Positions 4,799 through 11,853 of a stretch of 34,917 nt of DNA are shown here, one piece after another (the first letter of the stretch is position 1; each line of letters opens with the position of its first letter). The stretch covers positions 50,211 through 85,127 of the forward strand of contig NZ_AOMA01000125.1 in the NCBI RefSeq assembly GCF_000337895.1. Reading direction: 5' to 3'. Below the pieces are notes generated by a model. The model saw only the letters and a program-made list of their open reading frames with translations. It had not been told where the DNA came from and searched no databases. A program made the position numbers and the translations under genes. This stretch comes from Halobiforma nitratireducens JCM 10879. GTDB taxonomy: Archaea; Halobacteriota; Halobacteria; Halobacteriales; Natrialbaceae.

Positions 4799-5089
4799 CT
4801 ACAGTCGCTCCGTGTTCACGTCAACACCCGGCGGCGTCACGATCAGGAACCCGCGGAAGTGTACCAGGTTTCCACCGCCCTCTTTCACATCGCGGGCGAA
4901 GTCCGAGGCCAACTCGTTGACGTCGCCTTCGACGTTCAGGACCAACACGTTTCCACTCGAGATCGCCTCGAGCCACTGCTCTCCCGGCGTCGTCCCGTCG
5001 AGGACGCCGAGCACGATGCTCCCCTCGAGGTCGAGTTCCTCGTCGATGTGTTCCTCGACCGCTCGCAGATCGAGGTCGAAATCGCTCAT
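4799..5089 (-). CDS. DUF5779-like small haloarchaeal protein
   Basis: 96 aa starting MSDFDLDLRAVEEHIDEEL and ending VTPPGVDVNTERL. It is a strongly acidic single-domain alpha/beta protein (VLGVLDGTTPGEQWLEAISSGNVLVLNVEGDVNELA, then LVHFRGFLIVTPPGV). I recognise it as the haloarchaeal family I associate with DUF5779, which has no known function. That name is from memory. The minus-strand promoter region has a cgtttttctcg element about 30 bases upstream, flanked by the inverted pair CCCCTCGA (5096-5103) and TCGAGGGG (5128-5135). It is divergent from the Lrp/TRASH regulator. Confidence 0.72.
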   Translation of the reverse strand: MSDFDLDLRAVEEHIDEELDLEGSIVLGVLDGTTPGEQWLEAISSGNVLVLNVEGDVNELASDFARDVKEGGGNLVHFRGFLIVTPPGVDVNTERL

Positions 5090-5234
5090 GTGGGCCCCCT
5101 CGAAGCGCGACGAGAAAAACGTTCCTCTCGAGGGGAAGACGACGAAACCGACCTCGCTGTGTGACCCTCGGGACGATCACCGAACGGATCGAACACGGGA
5201 TACACTCTTTTCGTTTCCCTTCGAACTCGACGGT

Positions 5235-5828
5235 ATGCGTGACCTCGACGAAACCGACCTCGAGATACTCGAACTGCTCACCGAAGACGGCCGGCGGCCG
5301 TACAAGGAGATCGCCGACCACGTCGGGCTCACCCCGCCGGCGGTCTCCGACCGGATCGCCCGCCTCGAGGAACAGGGCATCATCCAGGGCTTTACGATCG
5401 ACGTCGACCGCGAGAAACTGCGCGGCGAGACCGCCACACTGGTCGAGCTCGAGCCCGCGCCGGCAGCCGTCGGCGATGTCTACAGGGCGACCGCGGAACT
5501 CGAGGGTGTCGAGGCGATCTACGAGGGGATGGACGGCCGGGTGCTGGTCCACGCTACGCTGTCGACCGACGACATCCGCTCGTGGCTCGAGACCGAACTC
5601 GATCTGAGCGATCTCGAGGGGTACGACGTAACGTTGCTCTCGCGGTCCGATCGTCGGGTCGGCGTCTCGGCGGCCGGCTTCGCCCTCGAGTGTGTCGTCT
5701 GTGGGAAGGAAGTCACCGGCGACGGGGTCACGGCGACGGTCGGCGGGGAGGTCAAGACGTTCTGCTGTCCCTCTTGTGAAGATCGGTACGTCAGTCGCTA
5801 CGAATCCCATCAGGACGCACTCGACTGA
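5235..5828 (+). CDS. Lrp/AsnC-type transcriptional regulator with C-terminal TRASH domain
   Basis: 197 aa from the ATG at 5235 (MRDLDETDLEILELLTEDGRR). Residues ~1-60 are a winged helix (LDETDLEIL, then YKEIADHVGLTPPAVSDRIARLEEQGII), as in Lrp/AsnC regulators. Residues ~65-145 are a reduced ligand-sensing segment. Residues ~155-190 form a TRASH-type metal-binding knuckle with ECVVCGKEV and TFCCPSCEDRYVSRY. Known haloarchaeal proteins of this architecture sense copper and control a copper-exporting P1B ATPase. No such ATPase, metallochaperone or other metal gene adjoins this copy, so its target is elsewhere or its ligand differs. A tacactctttt element ~30 bases upstream is the likely TATA box. 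Confidence 0.87.
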   Translation: MRDLDETDLEILELLTEDGRRPYKEIADHVGLTPPAVSDRIARLEEQGIIQGFTIDVDREKLRGETATLVELEPAPAAVGDVYRATAELEGVEAIYEGMDGRVLVHATLSTDDIRSWLETELDLSDLEGYDVTLLSRSDRRVGVSAAGFALECVVCGKEVTGDGVTATVGGEVKTFCCPSCEDRYVSRYESHQDALD

Positions 5829-6127: not shown

Positions 6128-6135
6128 TTTATATA
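6128..6135 (+). promoter_or_regulatory. TATA box of leuA
   Basis: tttatata is centred about 31 bases before the ATG at 6163, so the transcript should begin around 6157. Upstream in-frame start codons of the leuA body (for example the ATG at 6053) lie before this promoter and are therefore poor candidates. Confidence 0.6.
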
Positions 6136-6162
6136 CGTTCTCCCGCCTGGGATTGGATTACA

Positions 6163-7414
6163 ATGTCTGTACAAGACGAGCAGTCCTCTGACACCAGTCA
6201 GGGGGGTCGAGTTCTTCCAGGGCACGTTAGATTCCACTGACGAAATAGAGTCAGCACGTGTTTTCGACACGACCCTGCGAGACGGTGAACAGTCGCCCGG
6301 TACTTCGTTCTCGTACGACGACAAGCGACAGATCGCCTCGATCCTAGACGAGATGGGGACCCACGTTATCGAGGGTGGGTTCCCCGTCAACTCCGATGCG
6401 GAGTTCGAGGCCGTTCGCGATATCGCGTCTTCGACGTCGACGACCACCTGCGGGTTGGCCCGCGTCGTCGACAAAGACATCGAAGCGGCACTCGATTCCG
6501 GCGTCGAGATGGTGCACACCTTCGTCAGCACCAGCGACGTCCAGATTGAGGATTCGATGCACGCCACGCGAGAGGACGTCCGGGAACGCGCAGTCGAATC
6601 GGTCGAACGCGTCAAAGAGGCGGGCGTGACCTGCATGTTCTCGCCGATGGACGCGACTCGAACTGACGAGGCGTTTCTGGTCGACGTCGTGGAAGCGGTC
6701 TCCGAGGTCGGCGTCGACTGGATCAACGTCCCCGACACCTGCGGCGTCGCCACGCCGGGGCGGTTCCGGGAGCTGATCGCGAAAGTCGGCGACCACACCG
6801 ACGCCCGGATCGACGTCCACACCCACGACGACTTCGGGCTGGCGACGGCCAACGCCTTGGCCGGCATCGAGGCCGGCGCTGACCAGGCACAGGTGTCGGT
6901 CAACTCCATCGGCGAACGGGCCGGCAACGCCGCCTACGAGGAGTTCGTGATGTCGGTCGAGTCGCTGTACCAGACCGACACGGGCATCGACACGACCCGC
7001 ATCACCGAACTCTCCGAGATCGTGGCCGACAAGAGCGGGATGGACACGCCCGGCAACAAGCCGGTCGTCGGCGACAACGCGTTCTCCCACGAGAGCGGCA
7101 TCCACGCCGCCGGCGTCATCGAGAACTCCGATACCTTCGAACCCGGCGTGATGACCCCCGAGATGGTCGGCGCACAGCGCCGACTGGTCATGGGCAAACA
7201 CACCGGCACCCACTCGGTACGCGAGCGACTCGAGGAACGGGGCTTCGACCCCTCCGACGAGGAGGTCCGCGCGGTCACTCGCCGCGTGAAAGACTACGGC
7301 GCGGAGAAGCGCCGTGTTACCGTCGGCGACCTGGAACGGTTCGCCGAGGAAGCCGAAGTCCCTCGTCGCACCGAGGACGAAAGCGAGCGAGAGCGGGAGG
7401 AGGTGCGCGCCTGA
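6163..7414 (+). CDS. leuA: 2-isopropylmalate synthase (LeuA/CimA family), apparent frameshift near the start
   Basis: Condenses acetyl-CoA with 2-oxoisovalerate, the first committed leucine step; a citramalate synthase role cannot be excluded. The HMGL-like TIM barrel is clear: RVFDTTLRDGEQSPGTSFS, VDVHTHDDFGLATANALAG, QVSVNSIGERAGNAAYEE and NAFSHESGIHAAGV, then GKHTGTHSVRERLEERGF. The protein stops about 50 residues after that, so the C-terminal allosteric LeuA domain of the long form is absent. The body is open in frame from upstream of the TATA box, but no ATG, GTG or TTG lies between the predicted transcript start and the catalytic RVFDTTLRDGEQ. The ATG at 6163 (MSVQDEQSSDTSQ) is in another frame and would stop at 6240. 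Removing one G from the G6 run at 6201-6206 joins it to VEFFQGTLDST. Either an indel (real or sequencing) or an unusual start is needed. Confidence 0.85.
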
Positions 7415-7580
7415 GAGATGACGGCGTCTTCCCCGATTTCTACCGGTCGTGAGCGACGGGTATCACAATCGCGCTCGAGGACGGCGCTTGGGGCCACCGA
7501 CGTGATCGACTCCCCTGAGCGCGAACGTTGCCCCGCTCCCAACAGTTATGTCCCTCGAGGCACCTACTCGTTGAGTAACG

Positions 7581-7667
7581 ATGCAACGCGCTCCCCTGTC
7601 GGCTCGCACCCGGGACGGCAGCGGCGCGTTCGCCGCGATCCGTATTCGTATTGTAGGGGCGTACTAG
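7581..7667 (+). CDS. Putative Ile/Val leader peptide of the ilvBNC operon (28 aa)
   Basis: A 28-codon frame with its ATG at 7581 and TAG at 7665-7667. Its last eleven residues are AAIRIRIVGAY: three Ile and one Val codon within six codons (atc, att, att, gta), directly in front of a perfect hairpin (7655-7672) whose loop contains the stop codon. A TATA-like gttatg (7545-7550) lies about 34 bases upstream, which would give a nearly leaderless start. Bacterial ilv operons use leader peptides rich in the end-product amino acids to couple ribosome stalling to RNA folding. The same layout is seen here upstream of ilvB, ilvN and ilvC. Translation and any regulation are inferred. Confidence 0.55.
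   Translation: MQRAPLSARTRDGSGAFAAIRIRIVGAY
7621..7636 (+). promoter_or_regulatory. Leader hairpin 1 within the putative ilv leader peptide
   Basis: gcggcg-cgtt-cgccgc is a perfect 6-bp stem with a 4-base loop, inside the leader-peptide frame just before its Ile/Val codons. It is immediately 5' of hairpin 2, so the two could form alternating or sequential structures depending on ribosome position. Confidence 0.45.
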
Positions 7668-7672
7668 CCCCT
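7655..7672 (+). promoter_or_regulatory. Leader hairpin 2 overlapping the leader-peptide stop codon
   Basis: aggggc-gtacta-gcccct is a perfect 6-bp stem with a 6-base loop. The 5' arm begins at the last base of the Val codon of the leader peptide, and the TAG stop spans the loop/3' arm boundary. The downstream bases ctctattact are moderately U-rich in RNA but not a strong U-tract. A third small hairpin, cggc-ttc-gccg, follows at 7696-7706. I propose these as an attenuator-like leader. Confidence 0.45.
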
Positions 7673-7741
7673 CTATTACTCCGTACCCACGATTTCGGCT
7701 TCGCCGTCGCATCGATTCTCGAGCGACCAGTTTCCACGCAG

Positions 7742-7852
7742 ATGAGCAACCAGCCACACACATCCACGACCGGACGACGGGCGTTCCCGCCCGCGTCCGC
7801 GGAGCACGATACGGATCGTAATCGCCAGCCTACGGCGGGTGAGTACCGATGA
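7742..7852 (+). CDS. Small ORF upstream of and overlapping ilvB (36 aa)
   Basis: ATG at 7742, reading MSNQPHTSTTGRR and ending TAGEYR with a TGA at 7850-7852 that overlaps the ilvB start as ATGA. The composition is hydrophilic, with no recognisable domain, no hydrophobic segment and no Cys. No TATA box lies at the right distance, so it would be translated from the leader transcript and could couple translation into ilvB. It may equally be a chance frame within the leader RNA. Confidence 0.3.
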   Translation: MSNQPHTSTTGRRAFPPASAEHDTDRNRQPTAGEYR

Positions 7853-9681
7853 GCGAACGCGCTGCAACCGTTTCGCCACCGGACGAACGAGCACAAGAAG
7901 AACAGAAACACGACCGAGACGCGTCCACGGCCGACGGGACGCCCGACCCGGTTACGTCGGGCGCGCAGGCAGTCGTCCGTGCACTCGAGAACGCCGGCGT
8001 CGAGTACGCCTTCGGGGTCCAGGGCGGCGCGATCATGCCCGTCTACGACGCGCTGTACGACTCCGAGATCACGCACGTGACGATGGCCCACGAACAGGGC
8101 GCGGCCCACGCGGCCGACGCCTACGGCATCGTCGCGGGCGAGCCGGGTGTCTGCCTGGCCACGTCGGGACCGGGCGCGACGAACCTGGTCACGGGCATCG
8201 CGGACGCCGACATGGACTCGGACCCGCTTGTCGCGTTGACCGGCCAGGTTCCGACGGAGTTCGTCGGCAACGACGCGTTCCAGGAGACCGACACGACCGG
8301 CGTCACGACGCCGATCACGAAGGACAACACCTTCGCGGCCGACCCCGACCGGGTCGGCGACGACGTCGGCGAGGCCTTTGCCCTCGCCGGCGAGGGCCGT
8401 CCCGGTCCGACACTGGTCGACCTGCCGAAAGACGTCACGAACGCCGACACCGAGGCCGAACCCGCCACGCCGGAGACGCCCGACACCTACGAGGTCCAGG
8501 AACGAGCCGATCCCGAAATCGTCGCGGAGGCGGCCGAGCGCATCGAGGCTGCCACCCGTCCGGCCATGCTGCTGGGCGGTGGCGTCATCAAAGGCGAGGC
8601 CAGCGAGACCTGCCGTGAGTTCGCCATCGAACACGAGATTCCCGTCATCACGACGATGCCCGGCCTCGGCGCGTTCCCCGAGGACCACGAGCTGTCGATG
8701 GAGATGGCGGGCATGCACGGCACCGGCTACGCCAACATGGCGATCACCCACTGTGACACGCTGATCGCCGTCGGTACCCGGTTCGACGACCGTCTGACCG
8801 GCGGCATCGAGACCTTCGCCCCCGACGCGGCGGTCATCCACGTCGACATCGACCCCGCCGAAATCTCGAAGAACATCCACGCGGACTACCCGCTGATCGG
8901 CGACGCCGACACCGTCGTCTCCCAACTGGCCGAGGCCGTCGATGCCTCGCCCGAAGCGACGAAGTGGCGCGCCCAGTGCCAGCAGTGGAAGTCGGAGTAC
9001 TCGATGGCCTACGACGTGCCGTCAGAGCAGAGCGGTGACGAACCTTCGACTTCGTCGAAGATGCCCGAGGACGAGCCGGTTCAGCCCGAGTTCGTCGTCG
9101 AGGCCCTAGACGAGGCCACCGACGACGACGCGATCGTCACCACCGGCGTCGGCCAACACCAGATGTGGGCCTGCCAGTACTGGACGTTCACCGAGCCCCG
9201 GACGTGGGTCTCGAGTCACGGTCTGGGGACGATGGGCTATGGCCTGCCGGCGGCGATCGGCGCGCGACTGGCGGCCGACGACGACCAGGAGGTCGTCTGT
9301 GTCGACGGTGACGGTTCGTTCCTGATGACGATGCAGGGGCTCTCGGTCGCGGTCCGTGAGAACCTCGACATCACGGTCGCCGTGCTCAACAACGAGTACA
9401 TCGGCATGGTCCGACAGTGGCAGGACGCCTTCTTCGAGGGCCGTCACGCCGCCTCGGACTACAACTGGATGCCGGAGTTCGACAAGCTCGCCGAGGCCTT
9501 CGGTGCACGCGGGTTCCGGATCGACGACTACGACGAAGTCGCCGATGTCATCGCCGAGGCCGTCGCCTACGACGGTCCCTCGGTGATCGACGTCCACATC
9601 GACCCCGAAGCGAACGTCTACCCGATGGTCCCAAGCGGTGGCGACAACGGTCAGTTCGCCCTGACGGAGGACCAGCTATGA
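7849..9681 (+). CDS. ilvB: Acetolactate synthase, large catalytic subunit
   Basis: 610 aa ThDP enzyme making 2-acetolactate or 2-aceto-2-hydroxybutyrate from pyruvate, the first common step to valine, leucine and isoleucine. The N-terminal ThDP-pyrimidine domain (after ~40 variable residues) has YAFGVQGGAIMPVYDAL and the catalytic Glu in AHEQGAAHAADAYG. The middle domain has ATRPAMLLGGGVI. The C-terminal ThDP-pyrophosphate domain has the GDGSF...LNN motif (GDGSFLMTMQGLS to AVLNNEYIGM). The length is normal, apart from a disordered N-terminus and a hydrophilic insert around EQSGDEPSTSSKMPEDE. The start codon overlaps the preceding small ORF, and the stop overlaps ilvN by 4 bases, which implies translational coupling. 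The proposed leader at 7581-7672 lies upstream. Confidence 0.96.
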   Translation: MSERAATVSPPDERAQEEQKHDRDASTADGTPDPVTSGAQAVVRALENAGVEYAFGVQGGAIMPVYDALYDSEITHVTMAHEQGAAHAADAYGIVAGEPGVCLATSGPGATNLVTGIADADMDSDPLVALTGQVPTEFVGNDAFQETDTTGVTTPITKDNTFAADPDRVGDDVGEAFALAGEGRPGPTLVDLPKDVTNADTEAEPATPETPDTYEVQERADPEIVAEAAERIEAATRPAMLLGGGVIKGEASETCREFAIEHEIPVITTMPGLGAFPEDHELSMEMAGMHGTGYANMAITHCDTLIAVGTRFDDRLTGGIETFAPDAAVIHVDIDPAEISKNIHADYPLIGDADTVVSQLAEAVDASPEATKWRAQCQQWKSEYSMAYDVPSEQSGDEPSTSSKMPEDEPVQPEFVVEALDEATDDDAIVTTGVGQHQMWACQYWTFTEPRTWVSSHGLGTMGYGLPAAIGARLAADDDQEVVCVDGDGSFLMTMQGLSVAVRENLDITVAVLNNEYIGMVRQWQDAFFEGRHAASDYNWMPEFDKLAEAFGARGFRIDDYDEVADVIAEAVAYDGPSVIDVHIDPEANVYPMVPSGGDNGQFALTEDQL

Positions 9682-10358
9682 GCGGGAACGACCGACAGCG
9701 CGGACTCGAGGGCCCGCCACCGGAAGAGCGGCCGACGCCGGACGGCCGGCGCAACGAGCAGGGGATTCGTATCGACCCCGAGGTCGAGGCGACCCACGAC
9801 CCGCGACGGACAGTGATTTCGGCGCTGGTCAAACACGAGCCCGGCGTCCTCGCCGAGGTCTCCGGTCTGTTCTCGCGCCGGCAGTTCAACATCGAGAGTC
9901 TAACCGTCGGCCCGACGACCGACGAGGACCGCGCCCGGATCACCCTCGTCGTCGAGGAGCCCGACCCCGGGATCGACCAGGTCAAAAAGCAACTGCGGAA
10001 ACTGATCCCGGTCGTCTCGGTTCGGGAACTCGAGCCCGACGCCATGCGTCGGGAGCTAGCGCTGGTGAAAGTCGACGCGGCCGACCCCGCGCAGGTGGCG
10101 GCCGTCGCCGACATGTACGACGCCACCGCCGTCGACTCGAGTCCGGAAACGGCGACGTACGAGGTCACGGGCTCGCGTCAGAAGATCGAGGCCGCGATCG
10201 AGACCTTCGAGCAGTTCGGCATCCGCGAGGTCGATCGTACCGGGATGACCGCGCTGGCCCGCGGCACGGACGAAACGACCGGGCCGACGCCCGCGGAAGC
10301 GAGCGTCTCGGCCGTCGAAGACGCGACGCAAACGAAATACACTGCGGACGACGATTAA
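9678..10358 (+). CDS. ilvN: Acetolactate synthase, small regulatory subunit
   Basis: 226 aa from the ATG at 9678, overlapping the ilvB stop. After a ~40-residue basic/acidic N-terminal tail comes an ACT domain ([35 protein letters not shown]), followed by the ALS small-subunit C-terminal domain ([29 protein letters not shown], then [15 protein letters not shown]). The family binds valine or another branched-chain amino acid and confers feedback control on IlvB. The FNIESLTVG segment at the ACT ligand interface is intact. A ~25-residue acidic tail follows the conserved part. ilvC starts one base after its stop. Confidence 0.95.
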
Positions 10359-10359
10359 C

Positions 10360-11409
10360 ATGACTGACGAGTTCACTACCGAGATCTACTACGACGACGA
10401 TGCGGACGTATCGACGCTCGAAGACGACACCGTTGCCGTGCTGGGCTACGGCAGTCAGGGCCACGCCCACGCGCTGAACTTAGCGGAGAGCGGCGTCGAC
10501 GTGGTCGTCGGCCTCCGTGAGGACTCTTCCTCGCGGTCGGCAGCCGAGGCCGACGGACTCGCGGTGACGACGCCAGCCGAGGCGGTCGCACAGTCGACCT
10601 ACGTCTCCGTGCTCGTCCCCGACACCGTCCAGCCGGCGGTCTACGAGAACGCCATCGAACCGAACCTCGAGGCAGGCGACACCCTGCAGTTCGCCCACGG
10701 GCTGAACATTCACTACAACCAGATCACCCCGCCCGAGGGCGTCGACGTGACGATGGTCGCGCCGAAGAGTCCTGGCCACCTCGTTCGCCGAAACTACGAG
10801 AACGACGAAGGGACGCCCGGGCTGCTTGCGGTCTACCAGGACGAGACCGGTGACGCCGACGAACGCGCGCTCGCGTACGCGAAGGCGATCGGTTGTACTC
10901 GTGCCGGCGTTATCGAGACGACGTTCCAGGAGGAAGTCGAATCCGACCTCTTCGGGGAGCAGGCAGTGCTCTGTGGCGGCGTCACTGCCCTGGTCAAGCA
11001 CGGCTACGAGACACTGGTCGACGCTGGCTATTCGCCGGAGATTGCCTACTTCGAGTGTCTGAACGAGCTCAAGCTCATCGTCGATCTGATGTACGAAGGT
11101 GGAAACATGGAGATGTGGAACTCCGTCTCCGACACCGCCGAATATGGCGGTCTCACTCGCGGTGAACGCATCGTCGACGACAGCGTCCGCGAGAACATGG
11201 AGGAAGTCCTCGAGGAGGTCCAGAACGGGGAGTTCACCCGCGAGTGGGTCCTCGAGAACCAGGCGGGTCGCCCGAGCTACACCCAGCTTCGCCAGGCCGA
11301 GAAAGAACACGAGATCGAGGAGGTCGGCGAACGCCTGCGCGACCTGTTCGCGTGGGCCGAAGAAGCCGACGCCGACGGAACCGAGCCGGAGGTTCCGGCC
11401 GACGACTGA
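10360..11409 (+). CDS. ilvC: Ketol-acid reductoisomerase (class I)
   Basis: 349 aa. Isomerises and reduces acetolactate to dihydroxyisovalerate with NAD(P)H and Mg2+. The Rossmann motif [17 protein letters not shown] is followed by the cofactor-specificity loop [17 protein letters not shown], whose Arg and Ser residues suggest the 2'-phosphate of NADPH. The all-helical C-terminal domain holds the Mg-binding acidic residues in [12 protein letters not shown] and the family block [19 protein letters not shown]. The length is that of the short class I form. It is followed after 39 bases by the small ilv-leu operon protein, with no promoter seen between them. Confidence 0.96.
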
Positions 11410-11448: not shown

Positions 11449-11853
11449 ATGAGCGACCACGAGACGACCCGATCGAACGCGGAGCGGAACCGACCACGAC
11501 CGACAACCACAGCGAACCCGTCGACTGACGGCACGATGAGCACGATGGGCGCGATGGGCGACATCAGCCACACGAATCCCTACACAGGGGAAACAGCCGG
11601 CAACCTGTTCAACCGCGGCCCGATCGTGGCTACCGACGGGGGCGAACCGGCTGCGACTGATCCGAACGGGAACGGGAACGGGAACGGGAACGCGAACGCG
11701 AACAGGACCCAAGAGCGAACGACCACCGACACCGAGCCCACGTCGAAGACGATGAAAGACATCGAGCACACACCGCCCCACGACGCCGACGACGCGAACG
11801 ATGTCTTCGAGCGTGGCGGCGAACACGATCCCTCCGTAGAGGCCGAGGAATGA
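11449..11853 (+). CDS. Small acidic protein with a duplicated motif between ilvC and leuC
   Basis: 134 aa from the ATG at 11449; alternative in-frame ATGs are at 11536, 11545 and 11554. Two related segments stand out: [21 protein letters not shown] (about residues 38-58) and [21 protein letters not shown] (about residues 104-124). They share DI-x-HT-x-P-x(6)-A-N-x-x-F-x-RG, and each is preceded by Met. The linker includes a run of Asn-Gly/Asn-Ala dipeptides from hexanucleotide repeats at 11664-11702. No known domain, membrane segment or Cys is present. The stop overlaps the leuC start (ATGA), so it is cotranslated with the pathway genes. It may be an operon-specific accessory factor, but its function is unknown. 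Confidence 0.75.

Follow-up and report, generated by a model that had tools for sequence, protein, structure and literature searches.

The question raised by this locus is whether the gap between leuA and ilvB in Halobiforma nitratireducens holds a leader that senses the end products of the operon that follows, and how such a leader could act. The window, that is, the whole stretch of DNA analysed, comprises 34,917 nucleotides; its operon has the gene order leuA, ilvB, ilvN, ilvC, a small gene of unknown family, leuC and leuD (the features discussed are listed in Table 1). NCBIfam cut-offs were passed by ilvB, ilvN, ilvC, leuC and leuD, and leuA had strong matches to isopropylmalate synthase models, yet under their cut-offs. 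A preliminary description of this DNA had claimed an Ile/Val-rich leader ahead of ilvBNC, namely a 28-codon frame with three Ile codons and one Val codon in six (here termed uORF1). Both its coordinates and its codons were borne out, the operon genes behind it pass their models, and the Ile/Val/Leu tail is kept in relatives. In this respect the arrangement agrees with that of a bacterial attenuator leader: a short translatable frame with clustered end-product codons, located ahead of the cognate operon. Two further genes were noted in the surroundings. Upstream of leuA, on the same strand (4812-5828), lies a gene for an HTH regulator of the AsnC/Lrp type, the C-terminal part of which is a TRASH domain (PF24273, PF13404). 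The small gene between ilvC and leuC (11449-11853) encodes two HT.P..(L/V)F.RG repeats and had no match in NCBIfam or Pfam.

Table 1. Positions, in the window, of the leader features and of the genes on either side of them
Feature	Positions	Strand	Basis
leuA leader: TTTATATA 6128-6135, zero-frame ATG 6163, CTT 6214-6216, zero-frame stop 6238-6240	6128-6240	+	78 of 79 loci
Bridge frame (orfX, 144 codons), beginning right behind the leuA stop and reaching the start of ilvB	7418-7852	+	open in 70 of 76 loci
BRE (AA 7541-7542) and TATA-like box (GTTATG 7545-7550)	7541-7550	+	spacing, conservation over 79 loci
uORF1, leader peptide frame MQRAPLSARTRDGSGAFAAIRIRIVGAY then stop, predicted leaderless start; ATG 7581, TAG 7665-7667, in the leuA-ilvB gap	7581-7667	+	frame reading, conservation
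Control codons ATC CGT ATT CGT ATT GTA (Ile, Ile, Ile, Val)	7638-7655	+	3 Ile and 1 Val in 6
Conserved hairpin AGGGGC-GTACTA-GCCCCT	7655-7672	+	folding, conservation
G-poor tract, hairpin to internal ATG	7673-7741	+	TG (hence NUG starts) strongly depleted, 74 loci
uORF2, conserved internal ATG in bridge frame; TGA overlaps ilvB ATG (ATGA)	7742-7852	+	73 of 80 loci
ilvB, acetolactate synthase large subunit	7849-9681	+	TIGR00118, 687 bits (cut-off 538)
ilvN, acetolactate synthase small subunit	9678-10358	+	TIGR00119, 155.6 bits (cut-off 56.9); start approximate
ilvC, ketol-acid reductoisomerase	10360-11409	+	TIGR00465, 447.6 bits (cut-off 226)

The frame and its Ile and Val codons are conserved despite sequence drift: of 134 haloarchaeal regions examined upstream of ilvB, 128 had the leader. 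This total is made up of the window and 79 named loci (80/80), 28 further genomes (28/28, of which 20 had no match to the exact pattern and eight had one) and 26 genomes chosen for diversity (20/26, 18 recognized by script and two AT-rich ones by eye). The named loci, 80 in number, were fetched by IlvB, and 79 of them had upstream DNA (51 bases only in L112); the nearest IlvB to that of the window among them belonged to Halobiforma haloterrestris (91%). In the window and the 79 loci the motif occurred once each in the stretch searched. It should be noted that at least seven of the 134 regions repeat a species that was drawn from two collections, as in the pairs L094/L135 and L102/L140, whose peptides are identical; independent species are therefore fewer than regions. 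The leader was absent in five regions, three of them from one family (L224-L226), one from another (L223) and one from an otherwise leader-bearing family (L218); L228, with 432 bases upstream only, was counted as neither present nor absent. On reading the DNA by eye, a leuA-like frame in L223 and L226 reached ilvB or ended just short of it. At the level of genomes, the pattern ATTGTAGGGGN{1,10}CCCC was found in 283 of 392 members of the order and a reversed control pattern in 15. Outside the order it occurred in four of 93 genomes of the same phylum, which we took as chance, none of them having a stop in the loop. A search with the 28 residues in the window's genome and 60 relatives gave seven matches in other genomes between leuA and ilvB (peptide matches L008 and L010-L021 were dropped, as they were not beside ilvB), and a consensus search matched 66 genomes, including that of the window, out of 125 from the family.

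The codons next to the hairpin are both clustered and rare. Over 79 loci, 64% of the five codons that directly precede GGG encode Ile, Leu or Val, compared with 15.6% elsewhere in the leader. The Val codon is GTA in all 80 loci counted, whereas GTA makes up only 23 of the 3,873 Val codons (0.6%) in 77 ilvB genes of these loci. The preceding Ile position is filled by ATT in 67 loci, ATC in 11, ATA in one and GTC in one, and ATT makes up 118 of the 1,992 Ile codons (5.9%) of the same ilvB genes. The wider set adds GTA (L146, L147) and CTC (L221) at this position, which always holds Ile, Val or Leu, except in two AT-rich genomes (L217, L219) that have Phe or Ser there, keep Val-GTA and build the stem from other letters. 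On the IlvB tree of 77 loci, GTA underwent no change and the Ile codon seven, compared with at least 21 changes for the codon after GGG and at least 24 for leader length. The peptide end IVGA or IVGV is nearly invariant. Of 80 loci, 69 have their stop four to five codons downstream of the Ile codon, and the other 11 have it seven or nine codons downstream, beyond the hairpin. One locus, L107, had no in-frame ATG for the leader.

Upstream of these codons the picture is different. No protein-level constraint was found on the N-terminal leader codons in any frame, and a test of substitutions by codon position in uORF1 gave no signal (857, 945 and 1,017 for the three positions, 237 pairs); we therefore make no claim that the peptide product matters. 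Such a lack of constraint fits a leader peptide, without proving translation, and the pattern as a whole is, judged from the DNA, that of a frame read for its codons, the product being immaterial. The constraint could also reflect a nucleotide-level signal in TATTGTAGGGG, and the base preceding ATT is T in 73 of 80 loci; the exchanges among Ile, Val and Leu and the AT-rich cases argue against such a signal as the whole explanation. Over 76 loci, the uORF1 frame has no stop within uORF1, compared with 60 in the third frame, and the same frame has 28, 26 and 82 stops in three neighboring stretches, although the zero is partly built in because the ATG was picked as open to the motif.

A promoter of its own is predicted for the leader. 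The TATA-like element claimed upstream of the frame exists, 36 nt before the ATG in the window. Among the 79 loci that have an ATG, 64 place the best TATA-like hexamer 33 nt ahead of it. The consensus TTAT falls at -32 to -29, and A occupies position -37 in 74 of these loci and position -36 in 75; the box preceding the ATG was poor in L104 and L108. From the box-to-ATG spacing, the transcript is predicted to start at the ATG or a few bases away, and most transcripts of H. volcanii are described as leaderless (PMC7531240, PMC3986360). The phase between the TATA-like box and the motif is kept in 75 of 77 loci. We had considered this as proof of translation and dropped it once the bridge frame was found, since the bridge frame also forces indels of three and the phase is thus not independent evidence.

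The hairpin at the end of uORF1 had been described as a perfect one with the stop codon in its loop. The hairpin stood, and the T and A of the stop do lie in the loop; the G pairs, being the first base of the 3' arm, so that the stop straddles the border between loop and arm. In an extended form of 32 nt the hairpin folds at -13.7 kcal/mol, and only one of 200 shuffles was equally good. GGGG and CCCC occur in all 80 loci, and both arms are conserved although the spacing between them varies, being 5 bases in six loci, 6 in six and 8 in 67 (that of L115 was scored 0 by the script owing to a C-rich loop and is 8 by eye). RNAalifold formed the four core pairs in 42 to 44 of 44 aligned loci, and in 17 loci the stem is extended outward by at least three further pairs. 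Covariation, by contrast, which the preliminary description had looked to as a check, was not demonstrable (shuffles reached the observed values in 63 to 126 of 500), because the arms hardly vary. Of the two other hairpins of the window, the one inside the frame (7621-7636) is real, but a perfect hairpin of at least 6 bp occurs inside the frame in only six of 80 loci; that at 7696-7706 has 4 bp, as read from the letters. The leader RNA of the window (283 nt) folded better than all 200 shuffles, and its first 123 nt better than all but five of 200. The 17 bases behind CCCC are G-poor at all but two positions and form a C/A/U tract over 80 loci. In the alignment, a second conserved block, roughly GCAYCGnTTTC..CGACCAGC, was seen 30-45 nt behind the hairpin (about 7708-7730 in the window).

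The comparison with bacterial ilv leaders was not supported for the classical design with terminator and antiterminator. There was no terminator-like hairpin with a U-run at 7400-7900 of the window (a five-T run follows CCCC in L091), RNAalifold of 44 of the 80 loci gave no second conserved helix, and an alternative GCCCC partner within uORF1 was found in six of 80 loci only. Rfam gave no match in the window at gathering thresholds and none at E<=1 in 7400-7900, which means that no known riboswitch, T-box or other Rfam RNA was matched. With neither a U-tract terminator nor an antiterminator nor an Rfam match found in the window, this does not appear to be a standard bacterial attenuator.

The gap also contains a frame that the first reading had missed, together with a conserved ATG inside it. 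This bridge frame overlaps the leader and joins ilvB at ATGA. Of 76 loci with ATGA at the ilvB start, 70 (18 of 22 outside Natrialbaceae) carry it uninterrupted from there to beyond the end of leuA, and those 70 loci have an ATG or GTG at -4 to +6 nt of the leuA stop. Over 76 loci, it has 3, 1, 3, 4 and 0 stops in five successive stretches from leuA to ilvB, compared with many stops in the other two frames, except for the uORF1 frame inside uORF1. In the window uORF1 is the +1 frame of the bridge, as in 72 of 76 loci, the other four having another frame. Before the promoter the bridge shows some protein-level constraint (synonymous changes 0.44 vs 0.19 and 0.30), and behind the hairpin none was found (0.28 vs 0.22 and 0.38). 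Its internal ATG, kept in 74 of 79 loci by a slightly different rule from that of Table 1, opens uORF2, which we rejected as a separate ORF since it is the 3' part of the bridge frame; uORF2 and ilvB have the layout of a translationally coupled pair, with stop and start overlapping as ATGA in 73 of 80 loci. The internal ATG lies 53-110 nt behind the uORF1 stop, and the ATGs of the spacer are distributed 81:1:2 by frame. Between the uORF1 stop and this ATG, TG occurs 25 times, where 190 would be expected (0.13; 74 loci), compared with 758 vs 890 (0.85) in an inner part of ilvB. What had looked like a purge of start codons (one ATG vs 38 expected by base composition) turned out, with dinucleotides kept, to be TG depletion as such.

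On the basis of these data, a leader-peptide attenuator that senses the charging of Val- and Ile-tRNA appears to be the best explanation, with a probability of about three in four; the leader would most likely be a ribosome-position sensor that sets ilvBNC expression through an output step that we infer. RNA polymerase would start at the promoter within the gap, and a ribosome would start on uORF1 at or beside the 5' end, as promoter spacing suggests. If the GUA-reading Val-tRNA or Ile-tRNA is short, the ribosome should stall on AUU-GUA, where its footprint would hide the GGGG arm, so that no hairpin would form and expression would run into ilvBNC. If these tRNAs are plentiful, the ribosome would run on to the stop, which lies within the hairpin loop or shortly behind it, and depart, the hairpin would close, and the G-poor, ribosome-free RNA behind it would be exposed. 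The exposed RNA might then reduce read-through, most likely via the archaeal termination factor FttA (aCPSF1), and/or lower loading at the internal ATG that would feed ilvB through the ATGA overlap. On transcripts that begin at the leuA promoter and read through, ribosomes in the bridge frame would cross the hairpin in the other frame and could override the switch. We rank transcriptional output first, with roughly even odds. It is placed above an output by translation only because, according to a review, polarity in archaea is probably due to FttA (PMC12548453) and because Berkemer et al. report hairpins upstream of 503 termination sites in H. volcanii, and one hairpin that terminates 59% of transcripts in vivo (PMC7237163).

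An output by translation only uses the same sensor and overlaps with the preferred reading as a sub-case of it: hairpin and start-poor tract would gate initiation at the internal ATG of uORF2, and ilvB, the start of which overlaps the uORF2 stop, would be translated by termination-reinitiation. The conservation of uORF2, the strong frame bias of the spacer ATGs and the scarcity of TG in the spacer relative to inner ilvB are consistent with it, as are the NTGA overlaps and coupling described for H. volcanii (PMC12548453) and the report that AUG, GUG and UUG all work at 5'-UTRs without Shine-Dalgarno sequences (PMC3986360). However, the distance from the uORF1 stop to the internal ATG exceeds the coupling reach of about 30 nt given for H. 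volcanii (PMC12548453), and scanning from the 5' end is stated to be excluded in that organism (PMC3986360). In addition, TG is also depleted, though to a lesser degree, in uORF2 (48 vs 98 expected) and in the first 200 bases of ilvB (254 vs 457), and its shortage in the spacer is less marked outside Natrialbaceae (13 vs 46), so that other causes may be at work. We regard this variant as rather unlikely, though far from negligible.

If the tail [ILV]xIVGA with its stop were an arrest peptide, it would be a metabolite or the state of a protein, rather than an empty A site, that makes the nascent chain halt the ribosome; the nearly invariant last residues and the usual distance of the stop from the Ile codon would suit this, but the GGGGC stem accounts for Gly-Ala, an arrest peptide would have no need of rare codons, and in the 11 loci with a late stop that stop lies past the hairpin. 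This explanation seems improbable. Less probable still is a DNA operator: a regulator would bind the inverted repeat GTAGGGGC..GCCCC, and the frame would be incidental. Its arms are nearly invariant, some genera (for example, L117) have long perfect palindromes, and the gene for an AsnC-type HTH/TRASH regulator lies upstream of leuA; the variable spacing of GGGG and CCCC, the changed arms of L217 and L219 beside an unchanged GTA, the variation of the preceding codon within Ile, Val and Leu, and the retention of GTA where the 3' side does not pair with it all argue against an operator. Finally, the gap might be a small protein gene (orfX), of which leader frame and hairpin are by-products. The open bridge with its start codon near the leuA stop, its few stops and the excess of synonymous changes in its first part would be expected of a gene. 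However, protein-level constraint is missing behind the hairpin, the frame is closed there in five of 76 loci that retain leader and hairpin, uORF1 lies in another relative frame in four of 76, and it takes the uORF1 frame to make sense of the exchanges of Ile, Val and Leu before GTA, which leaves this possibility with very little to recommend it.

Should the attenuator reading prove right, Archaea would have their first amino-acid attenuator. Blombach et al. (2021) describe transcription attenuation as not known in archaea, and among the open-licence papers listed in our literature search none presented an archaeal leader-peptide attenuator in its title or abstract start; nothing on an ilvB leader of H. 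volcanii was found in the open-licence literature either. Among known systems, the ilvL attenuator of ilvBNC in Corynebacterium glutamicum is similar in its cognate operon, its short Ile/Val/Leu leader and its hairpins near the control codons, which are named as GUA and CUU (PMC11857589). It differs, according to the same source, in having a terminator, antiterminator and anti-antiterminator supported by mutations and an active leader-LacZ fusion, whereas the haloarchaeal leader has one short conserved hairpin, no U-tract in the window, a predicted leaderless start and an overlapping bridge frame. Actinobacterial ilvB leaders likewise have short frames with runs of Ile, Val and Leu codons that overlap a hairpin upstream of ilvB, but poly-U follows their hairpins, unlike in the window; in the ilvB leader of Streptomyces coelicolor, codon changes are reported to have had no effect, which is a warning for the haloarchaeal case (PMC1262725). 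The cys leaders of Mycobacterium, as this source presents them, share control codons near the stop and the lack of an intrinsic terminator, and their polyY motifs are weakly suggested as Rho-binding sites; they differ in the amino acid concerned, in having no conserved hairpin and in that Rho rather than FttA would be involved (PMC1262725). For the downstream part, termination-reinitiation at ATGA in H. volcanii resembles the way in which uORF2, or the bridge, joins ilvB, except that the coupling described there concerns gene pairs and the upstream frame here looks like a weakly conserved bridge over the leader (PMC12548453). As the leader is kept across most haloarchaeal families sampled, ribosome-mediated control in Archaea becomes testable by reporter swaps, and transcription-translation coupling and FttA-dependent polarity are likewise directly testable. 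The pathway can be bypassed by feeding in H. volcanii, which is open to genetic work: its ilvB1 and ilvC insertion mutants are reported to grow when given valine, leucine and isoleucine (PMC4300041).

A second unusual arrangement lies at the start of leuA (6128-6240 and 6214-7414), which is read in the +1 frame to 7414. In 78 of 79 loci, a zero frame that begins at an ATG with a TATA-like box reads through CGA or CGG GTT CTT C and meets its stop 15 to 33 nt beyond CTT, whereas LeuA is encoded in the +1 frame. Upstream of the motif FDTTLRDGEQ, as far back as that ATG, the LeuA frame has no ATG, GTG or TTG (the start codons scanned) in 68 of 78 loci and has one in 10; it contains a stop in the same interval in nine loci. 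CTT accounts for 1.7% of Leu codons in ilvB. These features suggest that LeuA lacks a start codon in its own frame and that leuA is probably reached by a programmed frameshift of +1 at CUU-C, where the Leu codon is both rare and conserved; the shift is perhaps tuned by leucine. Precedents for +1 frameshifts are prfB of Escherichia coli and Ty1 of yeast. A full-text literature search found nothing on a frameshift in haloarchaeal leuA, and for programmed frameshifts in archaea and Haloferax the one match dealt with Shine-Dalgarno use. As a side observation, the zero frame, MSVQDEQSSDTSQGGRVLPGHVRFH in the window and followed by a stop, has a leaderless-type promoter spacing and a CCTCTGAC/GTCAGGGG inverted repeat and leads to an almost invariant GTT CTT C. 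Taken together, branched-chain amino acid synthesis in haloarchaea may be under two ribosome-based sensors within one operon, neither of which turned up as described in our searches: a terminator-less, leaderless Val/Ile attenuator overridden by the bridge and a CUU +1 shift for LeuA; we propose this combination tentatively, at somewhat less than even odds.

Similar leaders were also sought elsewhere. In 30 trpC loci read for Trp leaders, seven chance frames with two Trp codons were seen, none of them directly upstream of trpC. Three genomes of a single genus (L154, L157 and L158) have the leader a second time, away from ilvB, as M..LIVGV and a stop on the hairpin; other second matches to the pattern (L160-L163) proved unlike leaders on reading. 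The second copies precede a free-standing small frame related to the small ilvC-leuC gene of the window (E 2e-11 to 7e-10), and in L157, which was read over its full length, a TATA-like box stands before the second copy.
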